From: Thermoplasmata archaeon
Lineage (GTDB): Archaea; Thermoplasmatota; Thermoplasmata; Methanomassiliicoccales; Methanomethylophilaceae
DNA: 64,000 nucleotides
Assembly (NCBI GenBank): GCA_015063135.1
Contig: SUTA01000008.1
Location: 1-64,000 of the forward strand
Direction of reading: 5' to 3'
A program made the position numbers and the translations under genes. The first letter of the stretch is position 1; every line of letters starts with the position of its first letter. The notes beneath the pieces are model-generated. The model was not told the origin of the DNA, did no database searches, and was given only the letters and a program-made list of their open reading frames with translations. Below, one piece after another: positions 10,820 to 54,292 of the stretch.

Positions 10820-11176
10820 ATGAGTGGAAAAACCAACCCTCAGCTCGTCGCGACCATTGACAACCTCAAGGCCAAGACGAGAGAGAACGGATCTGCGATC
10901 TGGCGTGACGTTGCGCTGAGGCTCGAGAAACCTAAGAAGAACTGGGCCGAAGCCAACCTCAGCAAGATAGAGAGGTACGCCGTAGACGGAGACACAGTCC
11001 TCGTCCCCGGGAAAGTCCTCGCAGCAGGAGAGATCAGCAAGAAAGTCACCGTGGCAGCATACAGTTTCTCGGATGCAGCCGCAAAGGCGATCGTCGCCGC
11101 CGGTGGCAAGACCATGTCCATCGAGGAGCTGGCAGCTGCCAACCCCAAGGGGACTGGAGTTAAGATTCTGAGGTGA
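10820..11176 (+). CDS. rpl18e: 50S ribosomal protein L18e
   Basis: 118 aa, full-length L18e. The N-terminal NPQLVATIDNLKAKT and the WRDVA region are typical, as is the C-terminal GTGVKILR end. It is the first gene of the conserved archaeal L18e-L13-S9-RpoN operon. Ends in TGA within GAGGTGA, which serves as the ribosome binding site for L13. Confidence 0.95.
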   Translation: MSGKTNPQLVATIDNLKAKTRENGSAIWRDVALRLEKPKKNWAEANLSKIERYAVDGDTVLVPGKVLAAGEISKKVTVAAYSFSDAAAKAIVAAGGKTMSIEELAAANPKGTGVKILR

Positions 11177-34155: not shown

Positions 34156-34719
34156 ATGGAGGACTACGCTTACATCCTAGACTACCTGCCCCAGGGGGCG
34201 CAGGGCGCCGGCTTCGGCAAGAAGGAGCCGCTGTGCTACGCTATCGGAGACGAGGAGTTCAAGCTCTTCGAGCTCGTGCCCAAAGCAGGCGTGATGGTCA
34301 ATATAGGCGTCAGGACGTACATCGGCAAGGACGACGCGGGCAAACGCGACATGATCGACCACGTCAAGAGGCGCATCAACTTCGACGACCTGACCAACAA
34401 CGCGGTCGCCGAGCTGGACTACGCCCTGACCGAGATCGTCATGTCCAAGCAGGACAGGTTCGTAGCTTTCTTCAACGAGGCCCAGCCCATCAGCATGCGC
34501 AAGCACCTGCTGGAGGAGCTCCCGGGCCTCGGGAAGAAATACATGGCGGCCGTCCTCGAGGAGAGGAAGAAGCAGCCCTTCACCGATTTCGCTGACCTCT
34601 CCGCCAGAACCGGGATCAAGAACCCCGAGAAGCTCATCGTGGCGCGCATCCACCTGGAGCTCTCCGACAAGGAGAGGAAGCGCTATCTTTTCGTGAAATG
34701 TCCGGAACGGGCCAACTGA
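34156..34719 (+). CDS. DUF655 family RNA-binding-like protein
   Basis: 187 aa. N-terminal YAYILDYLPQG, a central domain, and a C-terminal helix-hairpin-helix-like LEELPGLGKKYMAAVLEERKKQPF (near 115-138). It is found in archaea between rpoF and ksgA, as here, and is thought to act in RNA metabolism; the precise role is not established. Preceded by GAGGAGG. Its TGA end overlaps ksgA by 22 nt. Confidence 0.88.
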   Translation: MEDYAYILDYLPQGAQGAGFGKKEPLCYAIGDEEFKLFELVPKAGVMVNIGVRTYIGKDDAGKRDMIDHVKRRINFDDLTNNAVAELDYALTEIVMSKQDRFVAFFNEAQPISMRKHLLEELPGLGKKYMAAVLEERKKQPFTDFADLSARTGIKNPEKLIVARIHLELSDKERKRYLFVKCPERAN

Positions 34720-35480
34720 TCTCCGAAACGGGGGTCGTCCCGAAGAAGTCCAAGGGACAGAACTTCCTGACCGACGGCCGCGTGGCCGACCGGCACATCT
34801 CCTACGCCGGCATACAGAGGACGGACCGCGTCCTTGAGGTGGGCCCCGGCCTGGGCATCCTCACCGAGAGGCTGCTGGAGAAGACCGACGACCTCACCTG
34901 CATCGAACTGGACGACATCCTGGCAGATTACATCTCCAGGACCTACGGCGACAGGCTCAAGCTCATCCACGGCGACGCCGTGAAGGTCCCGTTCCCGGAG
35001 TTCGACGTGTTCGTCAGCAACCTGCCCTACAGCGTATCCACCCCCATCATATTCAAGCTGCTCGACTGCTCCTTCAGGACCGCCGTCGTCATGGTCCAGA
35101 AGGAGTTCGCGGACCGCATGGTCGCCGACGTCGGCAGCCCCGACTACTCCCGCCTGACCGTCGGGCTCTTCTACCGCGCCGACTGCGAGATCATGGAGAC
35201 CGTCCCCGCATCCCGCTTCAACCCGAAGCCGAAGGTGGACTCCGCCCTCGTGAGGATCACCCCCCGGAAAGCCCCGTTCGACGTCATCGACGAGGAACTG
35301 TACTTCAAGGTCACCAAGGTAGCGTTCGACCACCGCAGGAAGAAGATCGGGACCTCCCTCAAGGCCGCCGGACTGGTCAAGCCGGGCATGGACGTCCCGT
35401 ACCTCGACGACAGGATAGAGAACCTGCGCCCGGCGGAGATCGCGGAGATCGCGGATGCCATATCAGGGTCCGGGAACCGA
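34698..35480 (+). CDS. ksgA: 16S rRNA dimethyladenosine transferase (ends at CGA)
   Basis: Dimethylates the two adjacent adenosines of helix 45 in 16S rRNA. 260 aa. GQNFLTD (near 21-27), VLEVGPGLGILTERLL (near 46-61), NLPYSVSTPIIFKL (near 111-124, the NLPY catalytic motif) and FNPKPKVDSALVRI (near 174-187). The sequence after GSGN reaches CGA (35478-35480). The literal frame adds 23 Arg/Ser/Ala residues that overlap the start of the next gene. Confidence 0.92.
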
Positions 35481-35500: not shown

Positions 35501-36163
35501 ACGAAGGACCATCTCGCCCGCAGGTACTGCGTCTTCTTCATGGGCCTAATCACCATAACATTCGGGATCGCGATCATAACAAAGGCGGACCTCGGGACCT
35601 CGCCCATCACCTCCATCCCCTACAGCCTGTCGCTGATCTTCGACGGGATAACGTTCGGCACGTTCACGCTGATGTTCAGCATCCTCCAGGTGGCCCTCCA
35701 GTTCGTGATCCTGGGCAAGGATGCCGACAGGTTCAACCTGATGCTCCAATTCGTGATATGCTTCGTCTTCGGCTACTTCGTCGACTTCGCAATGATGGCC
35801 ATGTCGTGGTTCGAGCCCTCCGAGTATGCGGCCAGGGTGCTGTCTGTCGTCGCCGGCTGCTTCGTCCTGGCCTTCGGCGTCTACCTGCAGCTGGTGGCGG
35901 ACGTGGTCATGGTTCCGGGCGACGGATTCGTGTACGCCCTGAAGATGAGGCTCCGCTGGGAGTACGCCAAGGTCAGATTCACCCACGACCTCACCCTGGT
36001 TGCAATCGCAGCCGTAATGTGCCTCATATGCCTCGGGGACCTGGGAGGCGTTAGGGAAGGCACCCTGATCAGCGTCGCATGTGTCGGGCTGATAGCCCGC
36101 CAGTACCTCAACCGCCTCGGATGGCTGACGAGGCCCCTCCTGCCACCCTCTCCCGAGCAACGA
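35501..36163 (+). CDS. YczE/YitT-like membrane protein, probable ACG start (ends at CGA)
   Basis: About 220 aa with five or six transmembrane helices. The first, VFFMGLITITFGIAIITKADLGTSPI, carries the family's ADLGTSPI motif. GGAGG (35488-35492) followed by eight bases and ACG 35501 gives the ten N-terminal residues the family normally has. The first ATG (35540) lies inside helix 1 with no ribosome binding site, and no ATG/GTG/TTG lies between. CGA 36161-36163 ends it after PSPEQ. The literal frame runs 43 more codons through the kefB promoter. Function unknown, possibly transport. Confidence 0.8.
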
Positions 36164-36295: not shown

Positions 36296-38215
36296 ATGAA
36301 CGAGCTCTTCCTCATGCTTAGCCTTGGGTTGTTCACCTTGCTCGCTGGGATCTGCTCTGTCGTCTTCAACAAGCTGAAGCTGCCGCCGCTCATAGGATAC
36401 CTCGTTGCAGGAATAATACTGGCCAACATCTGGGAGGTAAGTGAGGAGGGCGACCTAATCGTCGACATCCTCTCGGATATGGGGTTAGTCCTGCTGATGT
36501 TCTGCATCGGATTGGAGATCAACCTCAGGAAATTGAAGAAGCAAGGCATGTTCGCCATGATCGTGTGCATGGTGCAGATGCCTCTGATCCTGATCGGCGG
36601 CTTCGCCGCTGGTGCCTTCATGGGCATGGATATGGTCCAATCCCTGGCGCTAGGCGCCATCATGTCCGGCTCCAGCACAGCGGTCGTCCTGGCGGTCCTG
36701 GAATCACAGAACTACCTGGACAAGGACCATAACGAGATGATCATCCTCGTGCTGATCGTCGAGGATATCGGCCAGGTCGTTCTGCTCTCCATCCTCGGTC
36801 CCATGATGACCGGGGCGGACATGAGCCTCGACTCCCTCATGATAATGATCCTCAGCATCATCGCATTCATGGCCGCCAGCATATTCATCGGCCTCCGGAT
36901 GATGCCCCCGGCCCTCAACTGGCTGGCGGACAACACATCGAAGGAGGTAGTAATCGTCTTGGCTGTGGGGATGGCCTTCACCCTGGCATACCTGTCTATG
37001 CTGGTCGGGCTGTCCATGGCCATCGGCGCCTTCCTGATGGGGCTGATAGTGGCTTCCACCAGGAAGAGCAAGGACATACATCATGCCATTGAGCCGATGG
37101 AACGCCTCTTCATGGCCATGTTCTTCATCTCCGTGGGGATGGAGGTCGCCATAGGGTCTTTCGTAGACAACATCCTGCTGATCATCGGTCTCTACCTGGT
37201 GTTCCTGGTTCTGAAGATCCTCTCCGTGTATCTGGGCTACTTCGTGGCCAACGAGAAGGGAAAGATCTGCTGGCTTTCCGCCGTGAGCCTCACCGTGATG
37301 GGCGAATTCGCATTCATCATCGCCAAGGAGGCCCTTGATAACGGGGTGATGGGCCAGGACATGTACACAGCCGTGGTGGGAGCGGCCCTGATATCGATGA
37401 TAGCCCTCCCGGTGATAGCGAAATATGCCGAGCGCGGATGGGATGCCATGGAGAGGAGATGCCCCGAAGCGGTCGCCAGCGGGCTCGGCAGGGTGGTCCG
37501 CTACAGGGACGACATCTACGAGTCGTTCCTGGGAGCCTCCAATCGCTCCAAGAGGGCCATCCGCAGGAGCATGGCTTTCGCCTACGTGAACATGCTGCTC
37601 ATAATCGCCGTGCAGCTGTTCTTCTTCCTATTCGCTGCCCCCATGGCCCATTGGCTGGATGACTGGACCCCCGTGATCAACTACGATGGATGGTGCCTCA
37701 TCACCATGATCGCCAACTTCCTCATCCTGTTCCCGCTGGCCCTGCAACTCGTCAACAATGCGAAGATCCTGGACAGGGCGGTGGTCAGGAGCAGCAGGCT
37801 CATGGCCAAATCGGCAGGCTCCCAGAAGCGCTACCAGAAGATCCTGGAATTCAATTCTGGGATAGTCGCATTCGCCATCGTGACCCTCATCATCGCAGTG
37901 GTCCCGAATCCCCTGGGATTGATGCAGCATGTGATGCTGTTCATCCTCGCAGGGGCGTCCATAGCCTTCATGGCGTTCCTCGCTTACCTGAAGGAGAGGA
38001 ACGATGAGCAGGAAGGAGGGGCCGACGAGGGAGCACCGGAGGCCGAAAAGCCCCCTGAGCCCGTCACAGACAGCATCAAGCATGAGGTGGACCAGGATGA
38101 CACCGGCCAGCAGCATCGCGACGTGTCTGGCCAGGGGCTCTTCGAGGTCGTCAAAGCGGATAACGTGGATGGGGGATACGAGATATTCGTCCAGCCCGGA
38201 GAGCGCAACCTGCGA
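36296..38215 (+). CDS. CPA2-family cation/proton antiporter, KefB-like, copy 1 (ends at CGA)
   Basis: 639 aa. About twelve helices in the N-terminal 380 residues: KLKLPPLIGYLVAGI near 24-38, the SGSSTAVVLAVL loop near 121-132, VLIVEDIGQVVLLS near 148-161 with conserved acidic residues, and SVGMEV near 280. A second membrane section (about 430-570) and an acidic cytoplasmic tail ending YEIFVQPGERNL follow. CGA at 38213-38215 ends it. The copy downstream ends at the equivalent place with the same codon. It exchanges K+ or Na+ for H+; the ion is not predictable here. Confidence 0.9.
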
Positions 38216-38227
38216 ACCTATTTTATC

Positions 38228-38235
38228 TTTTTAAA
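38228..38235 (+). promoter_or_regulatory. TATA box of the second KefB-like gene
   Basis: TTTTTAAA lies about 26 nt before ATG 38258, inside the 42-nt spacer after the CGA of copy 1. The spacing predicts a leaderless mRNA and shows that copy 2 is a separate gene rather than a second half of a fusion. Confidence 0.65.
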
Positions 38236-38257
38236 GCGATTCTCCCGCTGGATAGGT

Positions 38258-40180
38258 ATGGACGAATTCCTACTGCTGATCAACCTCACGGCTTTCACGA
38301 CGGTTGCTGCAGTCTGCTCCATGGTGTTCAACAAAATCCGCCTGCCCCCTCTGATCGGCTACCTGTCCGCGGGCATCATCCTGACCACCGTATGGGAGGT
38401 CACCGAGGAGTCGGAGTTCATCATCAGCATCCTGGCCGACATGGGATTGATCATGATGATGTTCTGCATCGGAGTGGAGATCAATCTGAAGAAGTTGCGT
38501 AAGCAGGGGATGTTCGCCATAATGGTCGGGATGGTCCAAATTCCGATGATATTGATCGGGGGCTACATCGCCGGGACCCTCATGGGCTTCGGCATGGTGG
38601 AATCCCTCGCGCTGGGCGCCATCATGTCCGGCTCGAGCACCGCCGTGGTGCTGGCCGTCCAGAGGTCCACCACCATCCTTGACCGCGACCACAAGGAGAT
38701 GCTGGTCCTCGTGCTCATAGTCGAGGACATCGCACAGGTGGTGCTGCTGTCCATACTCTCGCCCATGATGGCCGGGAGCGAGATGGACGCCGACGCGCTG
38801 ATCATCATGATCCTGAGCATCATGGTGTTCATGGGCCTCAGCATCTTCGTCGGCCTGCGCCTAATACCGCCCGCGATAAACTGGCTGGCCGACAACGTGT
38901 CCCACGAGGTGGTGATGGTCTCCGTCCTCGGATTCACCTTCACCATGGCCCTCATGTCCGTCTACGTCGGACTGTCCATGGCCATCGGGGCGTTCCTGGC
39001 GGGTATGATGGTCGCCTCCACCAGGAAGAGCCAGGAGATCCATCGCAGCATAGAGCCCATGGAGAGCCTCTTCATGGCCATGTTCTTCATCTCCGTGGGG
39101 ATGGAGATCACCGCGGGCGACCTCGTGGATAACCTCGGGACCAGCGCCCTGCTGTACTTCATATTCGTCGTGCTGATGGTCACCGGCGTGTTCATCGGCT
39201 ACATGGTGGCCAATGAGAAGGGGAAGACCGCGTTCCTCTCGGCCGTCAGCCTGGCTGTCATGGGGGAGTTCGCGTTCATCATATCCAAATCCGCGCTGGA
39301 ATACGGCGTCATCACCACATCCCTGTACACCTCCATCGTGGAGACCGCCCTGCTGTCCATGGTCATACTGCCCATAGCCGCGAAGTTCGCCGAGCGGTTC
39401 TGGGACAAGAGCGCCGAGAAGTGCCCCGAGGGCATCAAGCGCTTCTGCACCCGCATGCTGGCCAGGAGGGACAGCATCTACGCCAAGATGTCCGAGGCCA
39501 CCAAGAAGTCCAGGAGGGCGGTCAGAAGGACCATGGCGCTGGCCTACATCGATATCCTCGCCATAATCATCATACAGATCATCTTCTTCCTCGGCGTCGA
39601 TCCGGCTGCAAAGTGGCTCGCCGAGGAGACGGGGTCCAGCGAGCTGCTCTGGGACATGATCCTGATGACCATCAACTTCCTGGTCCAGCTGGTGCCCGCC
39701 CACATGGTCGTCACGAACGTCAAGTTCCTGGACGAGGCCGTGGTCAGGAGCAGCAGATACATGTCCAACGGGAGGCGCGGGCGCCTGGACCCCTCCAAGA
39801 TCTACCAGATGTTCCTCGAGCTCAACTCCTATGTCCTGGCGTTCGTGATAGTCCTGCTGATCATCACGGTCGTCCCGAACCCGCTTGGGATCTGGGAGCA
39901 GACCCTGATGTTCGCCATCGCCGCCCTCATCCTGGTCCTGTCATTCTGGTTCAACATCCACAACAAGAAGGAGGCCGGCGACATGGACGTCTACGACATG
40001 GACGACTTCGCCAGCGACGGGGGCAGCGCCCCGGATAAGGATGGGGAGAAGGTTGAGGAGGATCCGGCGGAGAAGCCGGCCGCCCATTCGGTGCCCGTGA
40101 AGGTGAAGGAACCGAATCCCGAGGGGGAGTGGGACTCCGAGATCGAAGTCTTCATCCCCGAGGGGAAGAGGGAATTCCGA
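38258..40180 (+). CDS. CPA2-family cation/proton antiporter, KefB-like, copy 2 (ends at CGA)
   Basis: 640 aa, one residue longer than copy 1 and colinear with it throughout: KIRLPPLIGYLSAGI, SGSSTAVVLAVQ, VLIVEDIAQVVLLS, the same second membrane block, and the tail ending SEIEVFIPEGKREF. This is a tandem duplication with substantial divergence. CGA 40178-40180 is followed at once by the CGA of the convergent deaminase gene on the other strand (CGATCG). The literal frame runs another 440 codons antisense. Confidence 0.92.
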
Positions 40181-41470
40181 TCGCCTCTGGCAGAGGCTCC
40201 TCCAGACGTCCTCGGACCTATCCATGACGTCGTCCACGTCCAGGGTGGCCACGCGGCCGTCGTCCACGACCACATCGCCCTGGCAGAGCACGGTCCTCAC
40301 GTTGAGGCTGTTGGCCGAGTAGGCGATGTTCGCTATGATGTTCTCGGGCACGAGAGGCCTGAGGTTGGGGGACCTGCCGCTGAGGATCACGATGTCCGCG
40401 TACTTGCCGGGCTCGATGGATCCGAGGGAGTCCTGCATCCCGATGGCCTTCGCGCCGTTGATGGTGGCGAAGTCCAGGAGCTGCTGTGCGTTGCACACGG
40501 TGGGATCCCATCTGCTGGCCTTCTGAAGGAGGCCCAGGGTCTTCATCTCGGCGAACATGTCGAGGGAGTTGTTGGTGGTGCTCCCGTCGGTGCCGAACGA
40601 TACGTTGACGCCGTTGGCCAGGAACTCGGGGACAGGGGCGACCCCACCTGTGGCGAGCTTCATGTTGGACACGGGGCAGGACGAGATGGACATGCCGGCA
40701 TCGCCCATGAGCCTGACCTCGCGCTGAGTGAGCCACGCGGAGTGCGCGGCGACGCCGCGGGGGCCGAATACCCCGATCTCGGAGAGCCACTCGCCGGGTC
40801 TCATGCCGGTCTTCTTCTTGTGGTCGTTTACCTCCCCTCTGGTCTCGGAAAGGTGGAAGTTCATGGGGGCCCCGACGGAATCGGAGAACTCCTTGGCCTG
40901 GACGCAGGTCTCCTCGTTGCAGACGTAGACGCCCTGGAGGCCGACTCCTGGCACGATCTTCCTCTGGCCCTTGTACCTTGCGTGGAAGCCCTTGCAGTTC
41001 TGAACAGGGTTGCCGTTCTGGGTGGTCTTGTCCTCGTCCAGGCAGCACCAGCAGAGGACTCCGCGGATGCCGGCCTTCTTGACTGCCTCGGCGATGACGT
41101 CCTCCGAGTAGTAGAGGTCCATGAAGGTGGTGGTCCCGCCGCGCATCATCTCGATGCAGCCCAGCTTGGTCCCGATGTCGAGGTCGTAGTCGGTCCTGTC
41201 GGAGTCGATCCTGAATACGTTGTCCAGGAAGTCCGGGAAGGTCATGTCGTCCACGACCCCTTTCATCACGGTCATGGCGACGTGCGTATGGGTGTTGATC
41301 ATTCCCGGCATGACGATGTCGCCGGTGGCGTCGATCTCCCTGTCGGCGGTCCCCTTGTACTCGGGGCCGACGGATACGATTCTCTCGCCGTCCACGACCA
41401 CATCCCCGCGGATTACCCTGCGGGAAGCGTCCTGGGTGACGATCCATGCGTTGCGGATCGCTGTTATCAT
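40181..41470 (-). CDS. SAH / 5'-methylthioadenosine / 5'-deoxyadenosine deaminase family (ends at CGA)
   Basis: Amidohydrolase of 429 aa, matching the family's usual length when ended at CGA (40183-40181). Metal ligands are in INTHTH (near 58-63), FHLSET (near 207-212), SAWLT (near 234) and FGTDGSTTNN (near 285-294). It probably deaminates S-adenosylhomocysteine or the 5'-deoxyadenosine released by radical SAM enzymes. A TATA box with an overlapping inverted repeat lies 25 nt upstream. The literal frame adds about 80 codons antisense to the KefB copy 2 tail. Confidence 0.88.
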
Positions 41471-41482
41471 GAGGGGATGATA

Positions 41483-41503
41483 CCCGTATGGGGTATATAG
41501 TTA
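41483..41503 (-). promoter_or_regulatory. TATA box and CCCGTA-GGGG operator of the deaminase gene
   Basis: Reading the plus strand, CCCGTATGGGGTATATAGTT. The minus-strand TATATACCCC is about 25 nt before ATG 41470. It adjoins ATACCC-CATAC-GGGTAT, an inverted repeat. A close relative (TATATACCCC next to CCCCGTACGGGG) is found at 30322-30348. It lies only a few bases after the cdc48 CGA end. Confidence 0.5.
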
Positions 41504-41508
41504 TCCGC

Positions 41509-43707
41509 TCGTCCGTAGAACTGCGGCGAGTCCCAGGAGGTCCTGCGCTTCTTGGCCTCCCTGCCGACCTTCTCGTAGAACTGGAACGCCGTGTCGTCCA
41601 CGGACGGCGGGATGCTGCGGACCGCCTGCTCGAAGTGCCTCATGGACACCTCCCTCGCGTTCGGGTCCTCCCTGTACGCCGACAGCCCCGCCTCCCTGCA
41701 GACCATCGCCAGGTCCGCGCCGACGTATCCGTCGGTCATCGCTGCGAGGGCGTCTAGATCCACGCCGCCGAGCGGCATGTCCCTGGTGTGGATGCCGAGG
41801 ATGGCCCTGCGTGACGCCTGGTCCGGCCTGCCCACGAGGATCATCGTGTCCAGCCTGCCCGGCCTCAGGAGCGCGGGATCGACCATGTCCGGGCGGTTGG
41901 TGGCGGCCATCACCGTCACCCCCTTGAGGTTCTCCACCCCGTCTATGGATGTCAGGATCTGCGCCACTACCCTCTCCCAGGCCTGGCTGTCACCGGACCC
42001 GCGGATGGGGGCGATGGAATCGATCTCGTCGAAGAAGATGATGCACGGAGAGAGCTGCTTCCCCCTCTTGAATATCTGGCGGACGGCCCTCTCGCTCTCG
42101 CCCAGCCACTTGCTGGCGATCTCCGGCCCGTTCACGGTGATGAAGTTGCACCCGGCGGCATTGGCGACAGCCTTGGCGATGAGGGTCTTCCCGGTGCCCG
42201 GAGGGCCGTACAGGAGTATCCCCTTGCCTGGCTTGATGCCGAGCCTGTCGAAGGCCTCGTTGCCGTCCTCCGTCGCTATGACCTCGTCCAGCCTCGACCT
42301 CACGGAGTCCAGGCCGCCTATGTCCCCCCAGGTGACCTTGGGGATCTCGACGGTGACCTCCCTCATGCCGCTGGGCTCTATCTCCCCGAGCGCGTCCATG
42401 AAGTCGTCCATGGTGACCTTCATGGCCTCGAGGACCTGCGGCGGGACTGGTTTGTCCAGATCCAGGGAGCTCATGCGCTTGCCCAGGCACTTCATGGCGG
42501 CCTCCCTGCACAATGCTGCGAGGTCCGCGCCGACGAAGCCCTGCGTTATGGATGCGAGCTGCTCCAGGGAGACGTCCTCGGTCATGGGCATCTCGCGGGC
42601 GTGGACGCTCAGGATGTCGAGCCTCGCCCTCCTGCCCGGGACGCCTATCTCTATCTCCCTGTCGAACCTTCCCGGACGCCTCAGCGCCGGGTCGATGGAG
42701 TCCTCGCGGTTGGTCGCGCCGATGACGATGACGTTGCCGCGGTCGCCCATGCCGTCCATGAGGGTCAGCAGCTGCGCAACGACCCTCCTCTCCACCTCGC
42801 CAGGGGCGGCATCCCTCTGCGGTGCGATGGAATCTATCTCGTCCAGGAATATTATGCTGGGAGCGTTCTCCGCAGCCTCGGCGAACATGTCCCTGAGGCG
42901 CTCCTCGCTCTCCCCGTAGTACTTGCCCATGATCTCCGGTCCGCGGATCGAGTACATTGATGCGCCGGACTCGTTTGCCACCGCCTCTGCGATGAGGGTC
43001 TTCCCGGTGCCGGGCGGGCCGTACAGCAGCACGCCCCTGGGCGCGGATATCCCGAGCCTATCGAACAGCTCCGGATGCTTCAGCGGCAGCTCTATGATCT
43101 CCCTGATGCGGCGGAGCTCGTCATCCAGGCCGCCCACGTCGTCGTAGGTGACCCTCTTCCCCCCTGGGCTCGCCTTGGACTTCTCCTGCGGGGAGTCCTT
43201 GACCGTGATGTCCGTGTCCTCGCCGACGACCACCGGCCCCTGCGGGGACGTGGAGACGACGGCGAAGGTGGACCTGTTGCCCATGAGGGCGATGTTGGGG
43301 ACGATGATGTCCGTGCCTGCGATCAGCGGCCTGCCGATCAGCCCGTTGCGGAATACGCTCTCGAACTCCTTGTCGAACTCGATCCTCTTCCCCTCGGGGA
43401 TGTTGGGAGCGAGCACTACCTTCCTGGCGGGCTGGGGCTCGCATCTGGAGACGGTGACGTTCTCGTCGACGCTGACGCCGGCGTTGGTCCTGGTCAGGCC
43501 GTCTATGCGTATCAGGCCCTGCCCCTCGTCCTCGATGGAGCATTTGAATACCTTGGCGACGACCGGGCGCTTGCCCTCGATCATGATGGTGTCGCCCAAC
43601 GACAATCCCAGAGCGCGCCTGGTGTCCGAATCGACCCTGGCGCGCCCGAACCCGGCCTCCGACTGGCGCTGCGCCATTGCGACCTTGAGGACGATGGAAC
43701 CGGGCAT
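41509..43707 (-). CDS. cdc48: Cdc48/p97-family AAA ATPase (ends at CGA)
   Basis: Unfoldase that extracts and unfolds substrate proteins. 732 aa. N-terminal double-psi barrel (LKVAMAQRQSE onward), then two AAA domains, each with Walker A GPPGTGKT (near 222 and 498) and Walker B LDEIDS / FDEIDS. The C-terminus ends SPQFYG and then CGA (41511-41509). The following bases hold the TATA box and operator of the deaminase gene, so they cannot be coding. The literal frame runs 14 codons further and stops by chance at 41467. Confidence 0.93.
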
Positions 43708-52354: not shown

Positions 52355-53335
52355 GCATCTGGAGCCGTCGAGGCCGGTGATGTCCACGAGGTACCCGAGC
52401 CTCTCGATGACAACCTCGCCGCACTCGGGGCAGACGGTGTCGTCTGCGCCCTCGATCAGCGTGTTGCCCACATAGACGTAGTGCAGGCCCGCCTCCATGC
52501 CGATGTCCCTGCAGTGCATGACCGTCTCCACCGGAGTCCAGGCCACATCCATCATCTCGTTGTCGGGGTGGAACCTGCTGAAATGCACCGGGACGTCCTC
52601 CGACAAATGGTCCCTGACCCACTCGCAGAACGCGCGGATCTCGTCGTCGGAGTCGTTGTAGCCTGGGATGACCAGATAGGTGAGCTCCAGGTGGATTCCC
52701 TCCTCGTGGACGATCTCCGCGGACCTCAGGACCGGAGCCAGGTGCGCTCCGCACACCTGCATGTAGAATGCGTCGGTGAAGCCCTTGACGTCCATGTTGA
52801 CCGCGTCGGCGATGGAGCAGAGCTCCCTCAGGGGCTCCTCGTTGATGTAGCCGTTCGTCACCAGGATCAGGTCCAGCGCGGCGTCCCTCTCCAGGACGTC
52901 CATGATGTACTCGAACCAGATGGCCGGCTCGTTGTATGTGAAGGCGATGCAGTCCATGCCCTCGCCCCTGCACATCGACACCAGGTCCCACGGGTCCTCG
53001 TAGGTGGTGCGCTTCTTCCCGGAGGGGAGCATGGATATGGCGTAGTTCTGGCAGTGCTTGCAGCGCATGTTGCATCCGATCCCGCCGACCGAGAAGCACC
53101 TCGACCCGGGGCGGTAATGGAACAGCGGCTTCTTCTCCACGGGGTCGACGCACAGCGACGACACCTTCCCGTAGGAGTAGGCCACGAGCATGTCCTCGTC
53201 GGCCCTGCGGGCCCCGCAGCGTCCGAAATCTCCCGGCTTGAGAAGGCAGCCGTGGGGGCAGAGGAGGCACTTGTAGAAGTCTCCCTGGCGCTCGTAGTAG
53301 CGCGCCTCGACGCGTTCGCCGTTAGTAGCTGCCAT
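52307..53335 (-). CDS. AmmeMemoRadiSam-type radical SAM protein (ends at CGA)
   Basis: 342 aa. The cluster motif CNMRCKHCQN (near 80-89) binds the 4Fe-4S/SAM centre. N-terminal CLLCPHGCLLKPGDFGRCGAR and C-terminal CPECGEVVIE / CSKCGHEMN provide additional Cys sites. It is related to the pyruvate formate-lyase activase-like proteins found with AMMECR1 and Memo; the substrate is unknown. CGA (52309-52307) ends it after EERK; the next canonical stop is at 52268. It overlaps thiL by 14 nt at its start. Confidence 0.88.
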
Positions 53336-54254
53336 GTCCGATCCTGCTCCTGGAGCCTTCCCGTATCAGGTCCGGATGGTCGCCGTCGTGGACCATCCCT
53401 ATTATGCTGAACTCCACCTCCATCTCGTACAGCTTCCTGAACCTGTCCTTGTCCGCGGTGAAGAGGAGCTCGTACTCCCCTCCCCAGTATAGCAGGAGGT
53501 CCTGGACGTCCCTGCCGGAGGCCTGCGCCATCTCCTCGACGCCTTCCCCGCGCGGTATGAAATCGAACTCGACGTCTATGCCGACATGCGAGTGCGAGCA
53601 TATCCCGTTGAGCGCGGTGCCCAGGCCGTCGGAGAGGTCCATGCACGATGTGACCACCCCGGACGAGGCCAGGGCCATTCCCTCCGCGACCCTCGGGACG
53701 GGGACGTACAAGGACTGCCTCGCATCCTCCATCTCGACCCCGAGCTCCAGCGAGAGGAACCCAGCCGCCGGCCCGCCTATGGGCCCCGTGACGGCCACGA
53801 TGTCCCCGGGATTGGCCCCCGAGCGGGTCATCGGCTTCCTTCCGTCCATGGACCCGATCGCCGTCCCGGCGACGATGCCGGATCCGAACTTGGTGTCCCC
53901 TCCGGCTATACCGGTGCCGCAGAACTCGCAGCACTGGTCGATGCCGCTCATGATGTCGTAGGCGGCCTGGGCCTCCAGGTCCGGCGGGAGGGCGAGGGCC
54001 GCGAGGAACCCCGTGGGCCTGGCGCCCATGGCGGCCAGGTCGCTGAAGTTGACCGCGGCAGCGTACCATCCGAACTGCTCGTATGACATGCCCGCCGGGA
54101 AATGCCTGTCGAAGGTGACGATGTCCGTGGTGACCACGGTGTCCTTCCCCAGCACCGCTGCGTCGTCGCCCGGGCCGATTAGGCCCTCGGGGCGGATGAA
54201 GGTCATGAAATCCTCTATGAGCGCGCGCTCGCCGATCTCCGATATCCTCGGCAT
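53322..54254 (-). CDS. thiL: thiamine-monophosphate kinase
   Basis: Makes thiamine diphosphate. 310 aa, PurM-like fold. GPGDDAAVLG (near 27-36), NFSDLAAMGARPTG (near 68-81) and CMDLSDGLGTAL (near 207-218) carry the Asp residues for metal and ATP. A TTTTATC box lies about 26 nt before ATG 54254, within the 38-nt gap after the polB CGA, so the mRNA is likely leaderless. Ends in TAA inside the radical SAM gene start. Confidence 0.92.
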   Translation of the reverse strand: MPRISEIGERALIEDFMTFIRPEGLIGPGDDAAVLGKDTVVTTDIVTFDRHFPAGMSYEQFGWYAAAVNFSDLAAMGARPTGFLAALALPPDLEAQAAYDIMSGIDQCCEFCGTGIAGGDTKFGSGIVAGTAIGSMDGRKPMTRSGANPGDIVAVTGPIGGPAAGFLSLELGVEMEDARQSLYVPVPRVAEGMALASSGVVTSCMDLSDGLGTALNGICSHSHVGIDVEFDFIPRGEGVEEMAQASGRDVQDLLLYWGGEYELLFTADKDRFRKLYEMEVEFSIIGMVHDGDHPDLIREGSRSRIGHGSY

Positions 54255-54292
54255 CGCCACCTGTATGGCGATGCACCGATAAAACGCATCGG

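Follow-up and report, generated by a model that had tools for sequence, protein, structure and literature searches.

Stop codons turned into sense codons are known in many genomes, and sense codons turned into stops have so far been a mitochondrial curiosity. AGA and AGG serve as stops in vertebrate mitochondria, and the bacterial release factor RF2 gene (prfB) is autoregulated by an in-frame UGA. Sense-to-stop changes have been described as rare and mitochondrial (PMC6821328). By use of Codetta, CGA, CGG, and AGG were found to be reassigned in bacteria, with no altered sense codon reported in archaea (PMC8629427), and Codetta is unable to detect sense-to-stop changes (PMC9825746). Furthermore, the only archaeal cases named in a review of recoding are Sec, Pyl, and −1 frameshifting (PMC8211752). 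Our literature search, which included no preprints and few subscription journals, gave nothing on CGA as a stop, on CGA use in Methanomassiliicoccales, or on autoregulation of an archaeal release factor, and a prior description is possible.

The window analyzed herein, a stretch of 64,000 nucleotides, lies on contig C32 of a metagenome-assembled genome (MAG; G000) of 1,860,562 bp in 40 contigs, with 59.6% GC and a completeness of 87%. The nearest relatives of its archaeal release factor (aRF1) are found in Methanomethylophilaceae/Methanomassiliicoccales, mostly from animal guts, and a tree of aRF1 and ArgRS places G000 inside the clade containing UBA71 (a GTDB-like genus), as sister to G010. 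We conclude with high confidence that CGA is a stop codon in this genome, and the codon seems no longer to encode an amino acid in this gut methanogen.

At the tandem KefB locus of the window, the literal open reading frame (36296–41500) encodes 1,734 amino acids, is open under translation table 11, and contains in-frame CGA codons at 38213–38215 and 40178–40180 (plus strand). When these codons are read as stops, two KefB-like antiporters are obtained, copy 1 of 639 aa (36296–38212, plus strand) and copy 2 of 640 aa (38258–40177, plus strand), which share 52% identity in an end-to-end pairwise alignment, C-termini included, and both match the Na_H_Exchanger domain PF00999 (E = 4e-57 and 4e-46), in agreement with KefB-like CPA2 antiporters; the end-to-end correspondence proposed by the sequence-only reading is thereby confirmed. 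The same reading held that the C-terminal 440 residues of the literal product are antisense to a deaminase, and they indeed lie opposite an amidohydrolase/deaminase gene of 429 aa on the minus strand (40184–41470; PF01979). This gene is likewise closed by CGA (40181–40183, minus strand), its literal frame of 509 aa would overlap kefB2, and the convergent genes meet at their terminators, with CGA directly followed by TCG at 40178–40183. The TATA-like sequence TTTTTAAA, previously pointed out in the spacer, is present at 38228–38235 (plus strand), centered 26 nt upstream of the copy 2 ATG at 38258, and is a putative promoter. KefB orthologues in the genus are 578–638 aa long and end at ordinary stops, with no conserved sequence past the position of the CGA; in G014 and G015, the members of the same tandem pair are separate genes with TGA or TAA as their stops, which contradicts a single protein across both copies. 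Termination of both copies at CGA, the central claim of the earlier reading, is supported by the genome-wide pattern and by the loss of the CGA-reading tRNA described below; the KefB case is one instance of that pattern, and the claim is now stronger than the window alone could make it.

Among the 67 genes called in the window, 25 end in CGA. Examples near the KefB locus are a KsgA/RsmA-like rRNA methyltransferase of 260 aa (named by sequence; 34698–35480, plus strand; literal frame 283 aa), a membrane protein of 207 aa (35540–36163, plus strand; literal frame 250 aa), and a CDC48/VCP-like AAA ATPase of 732 aa (named by sequence; 41509–43707, minus strand). In the whole-MAG call of 1,594 genes, the ends comprise TGA (786), CGA (690, approximately 43%), TAA (78), and TAG (40), counts that are descriptive only since the codon model used for the call treated CGA as a stop. 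An independent test was obtained by mapping the proteins of G014, a congeneric complete genome with a standard-code gene call, onto G000 and comparing all 64 codons. CGA occurred 52 times at orthologous gene ends and not once in 27,089 aligned internal codons, and it was the most end-enriched of all codons while being internally absent; the corresponding end/internal counts for the standard stops were 70/1 for TGA, 7/0 for TAA, and 3/1 for TAG. Of 67 CGA-ended orthologues, 57 have the CGA within five codons of the C-terminus of the orthologue; the next standard stop follows at a median distance of 25 codons and is at least 100 codons away in 17 cases. Stop/start overlaps in G000 number 95 for CGATG and 70 for TGATG. 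Apparent internal CGA codons in G000 were rejected, all of them falling in over-extended 5′ ends or N-termini, often mixed with TGA or TAG. The features of a sense-to-stop change are thus found together: CGA is missing inside conserved genes, occupies orthologous ends, is interchangeable with TGA, and has no detected cognate tRNA. Because CGA ends recur at the above frequencies in the window and the genome and the orthologue test agrees, those of the KefB copies are not a matter of chance.

The tRNA-Arg species detected by ARAGORN in G000 have the anticodons GCG, CCG, CCU, and UCU, and every other four-codon box has a U34 (UNN) tRNA; tRNA-Arg(UCG) was not found by ARAGORN on any of the 40 contigs of the 87%-complete MAG. 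In many relatives, including the sister species G010, the tRNA-Arg(UCG) gene lies near orthologues of the G000 genes at C25:95732–96762, and this syntenic interval is assembled on one contig in G000 and contains no tRNA. A strict first pattern had pointed to an absence of the tRNA in most genus members; this was rejected with looser patterns and with an ARAGORN scan of 20 loci, which revealed tRNA-Arg(UCG) in nearly all members. A clear loss of tRNA-Arg(UCG) was observed for this genome only. In a subclade of six genomes (G003, G007, G009, G012, G019, and G023; loci L302–L307), the tRNA has C at position 33, where U is near-universal, a substitution that would weaken it. A gene distantly similar (27–31% identity) to window positions 53322–54260 adjoins tRNA-Arg(UCG) in the majority of relatives, as well as in the outgroup G027 (L247–L251, L292, and L308–L314).

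Intermediate stages are found in relatives. Among the genes sampled, CGA ends were observed in 8 of 59 in G021, 6 of 30 in G008, and 7 of 202 in G014, and in none of 14 genes of the sister species G010; the figures for G021 and G008, as well as the observations on the Methanomethylophilus clade below, refer to sampled genes, not whole genomes. In G014, a standard stop lies at most 16 codons from the expected end, and in G021 and G008 the next standard stop is sometimes more than 100 codons away. A GNAT-like gene (g1438, named by sequence) ends as LRL-TGA in G008 and as LRL-CGA in G021, its sister species, within near-identical flanks. Furthermore, seven genomes of the Methanomethylophilus clade have a cmk gene that ends with CGA immediately ahead of an in-frame cbf5, and in the close relative L095 cmk ends with TGA (both genes named by sequence). 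In these seven (L076, L077, L081, L083, L086, L089, and L101), cmk and cbf5 form one open frame, split by the CGA just before the cbf5 ATG, and databases may show a false cmk–cbf5 fusion protein.

The gene of aRF1 itself is distinctive. We compared 42 genomes in which CGA makes up less than 1% of the Arg codons nearby with 13 genomes of ordinary CGA use. In the CGA-depleted Methanomethylophilaceae, CGA accounts for 48 of 879 Arg codons in aRF1 versus 9 of 7,761 (0.12%) elsewhere (Fisher 2.6e-39, with related genomes not being independent), and an in-frame CGA is found in aRF1 in 41 of the 42 genomes, the remaining sequence being a fragment that begins downstream of the site. No such excess in aRF1 was found in the 13 ordinary-CGA genomes (21/292 vs. 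140/1,993, p = 0.90). In human numbering, the site corresponds to R81 in the UBA71 clade, whereas it is R28 in the Methanomethylophilus clade and lies elsewhere in others; because the site differs between clades, the CGA seems to be kept as such, not inherited at one position. These relatives must read the aRF1 CGA as arginine at least part of the time, and its reading by aRF1 is indicated indirectly there. A frameshift at the codon was rejected, since the phase is the same before and after it; the gene has an in-frame terminator inside a release-factor gene, as prfB does, and lacks a programmed frameshift. Because the frame stays in phase, the aRF1 CGA is not a prfB-type device and is similar to it in principle only.

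G000 has one aRF1 gene, with no internal CGA; the gene itself ends GTG AGC CGA, overlapping the ATG of argS. Throughout the order, the aRF1 and argS genes (C35:53724–56704 in G000) either overlap or lie almost end to end, and they look co-transcribed. The G000 protein is unique in K69N, the other 68 of 68 sequences having K, and also carries N70H; both changes lie beside the NIKS loop and next to V71, which in human eRF1 is putatively a stop-binding residue (PMC4482090). The two substitutions are correlated with the use of CGA as a stop.

We propose that CGA is a translation terminator here as a result of aRF1 tolerance, codon ambiguity in the family, and loss of the tRNA in one lineage, an explanation to which we assign a probability of approximately 90%. 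The aRF1 of Methanomethylophilaceae would tolerate C at the first stop position, such that CGA behaves like UGA; release at CGA by aRF1 itself would be the simplest mechanism, and it is favored by the CGA within aRF1. In most of the family, CGA would be nearly unused and ambiguous between arginine and stop, with tRNA-Arg(UCG) competing with aRF1. The in-frame CGA of the aRF1 gene may be regulatory and could gauge the level of the factor, in that abundant aRF1 would terminate there, and scarce aRF1 would allow tRNA-Arg to read through the codon and yield full-length aRF1 (translational autoregulation). In the lineage of G000, the tRNA-Arg(UCG) gene was presumably lost, CGA disappeared from inside genes, including aRF1, the two residues by the NIKS loop changed, and C/T transitions would have spread CGA to approximately 43% of called ends. 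This extreme state is represented by one MAG, 87% complete.

Other explanations were weighed against this proposal. Under the standard code, CGA would encode arginine and the frames would run to the next TGA, TAA, or TAG, yielding fused or extended proteins. The frames are open, and a few CGA codons are indeed read as arginine in relatives, but this reading is highly improbable in view of the complete lack of CGA among the aligned internal codons, the match between CGA ends and orthologue ends, extensions that are antisense or enter the following gene, the missing tRNA-Arg(UCG), and the separate KefB genes of G014 and G015. An assembly or base-calling artefact that turns TGA into CGA is conceivable in a metagenome-assembled genome, yet it is the least credible of the explanations considered: CGA ends also occur in the independent assemblies G008, G021, COG_1, and 1R26, and TGA still ends the 786 genes counted above and abounds in the two other frames (15,025 and 3,166 occurrences), so that wholesale conversion is excluded.

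Two further explanations were considered. Editing of mRNA from C to U would convert terminal CGA to UGA before the ribosome meets it, and it would give the same end-of-gene pattern, CGA and UGA differing in C/U only; we consider it very unlikely, since hundreds of sites would be needed, we know of no editing system for archaeal mRNA, and the CGA inside aRF1 and the co-occurring tRNA loss would be left unexplained. Alternatively, CGA may simply be unassigned, with stalled ribosomes rescued by Pelota/ABCE1 without recognition by a release factor. The lack of a cognate tRNA, the family-wide avoidance of CGA, and the standard stops within 16 codons of the CGA ends in G014 are consistent with this, and we regard it as unlikely, given that approximately 43% of genes would rely on rescue, that CGA would hardly spread under such conditions, and that CGATG overlaps resembling TGATG suggest ordinary termination–reinitiation.

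Taken as a terminator read by aRF1, CGA can be compared with the described systems. As in the mitochondrial sense-to-stop changes, the codon is lost from gene interiors and turns up at gene ends, the tRNA that would read it is absent, and the codon-reading domain of the release factor is substituted; the mitochondrial cases differ in concerning organelle genomes with 13 standard genes, whereas the genome affected here is cellular, comprises approximately 1,600 genes, and encodes an archaeal aRF1. The bacterial reassignments share rare Arg codons, a tRNA-UCG missing in some clades, and a changed codon meaning, but are sense-to-sense (the CGA/CGG cases at low GC), and the present change is sense-to-stop at 59.6% GC. 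In RF2, too, an early in-frame codon of the release-factor gene would be read as a stop by the encoded factor itself; here, by contrast, the codon is CGA in an archaeal aRF1 gene, read-through as arginine is in phase, and the position of the codon has shifted from clade to clade. Archaeal UAG (Pyl) and UGA (Sec) are likewise single codons contested by a tRNA and a release factor, with the opposite direction of change, from stop to amino acid rather than from amino-acid codon to stop. With moderate confidence, we consider this the first sense-to-stop reassignment in a non-organellar genome with its stages visible: aRF1 would read CGA family-wide, the codon being both Arg and stop, purged from genes, and kept in aRF1 as a gauge, and one lineage would have lost the tRNA and made CGA a major stop. 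Heavy use of a fourth stop in a cellular genome would show that the specificity of release factors for U at the first position can relax, and the lineage would offer the intermediate stages of an ambiguous codon, an unusual tRNA, and a lost tRNA. Standard annotation of these gut archaea would yield wrong proteins (fusions and extensions), and the in-frame CGA of aRF1 makes autoregulation of an archaeal release factor directly testable.

A second conserved CGA was considered in the gene of an eL18-like ribosomal protein (10820–11176, plus strand). Codon 29, within TGGCGAGAY, is CGA in most genus members as well as in five outgroup genomes, including genomes with ordinary CGA use, and the codon was dropped as a second CGA sensor; because this CGA is kept even in ordinary-CGA outgroups, a conserved CGA need not mean sensing of aRF1. 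In the window, Arg29 is encoded by CGT (10904–10906), as it is in G001.
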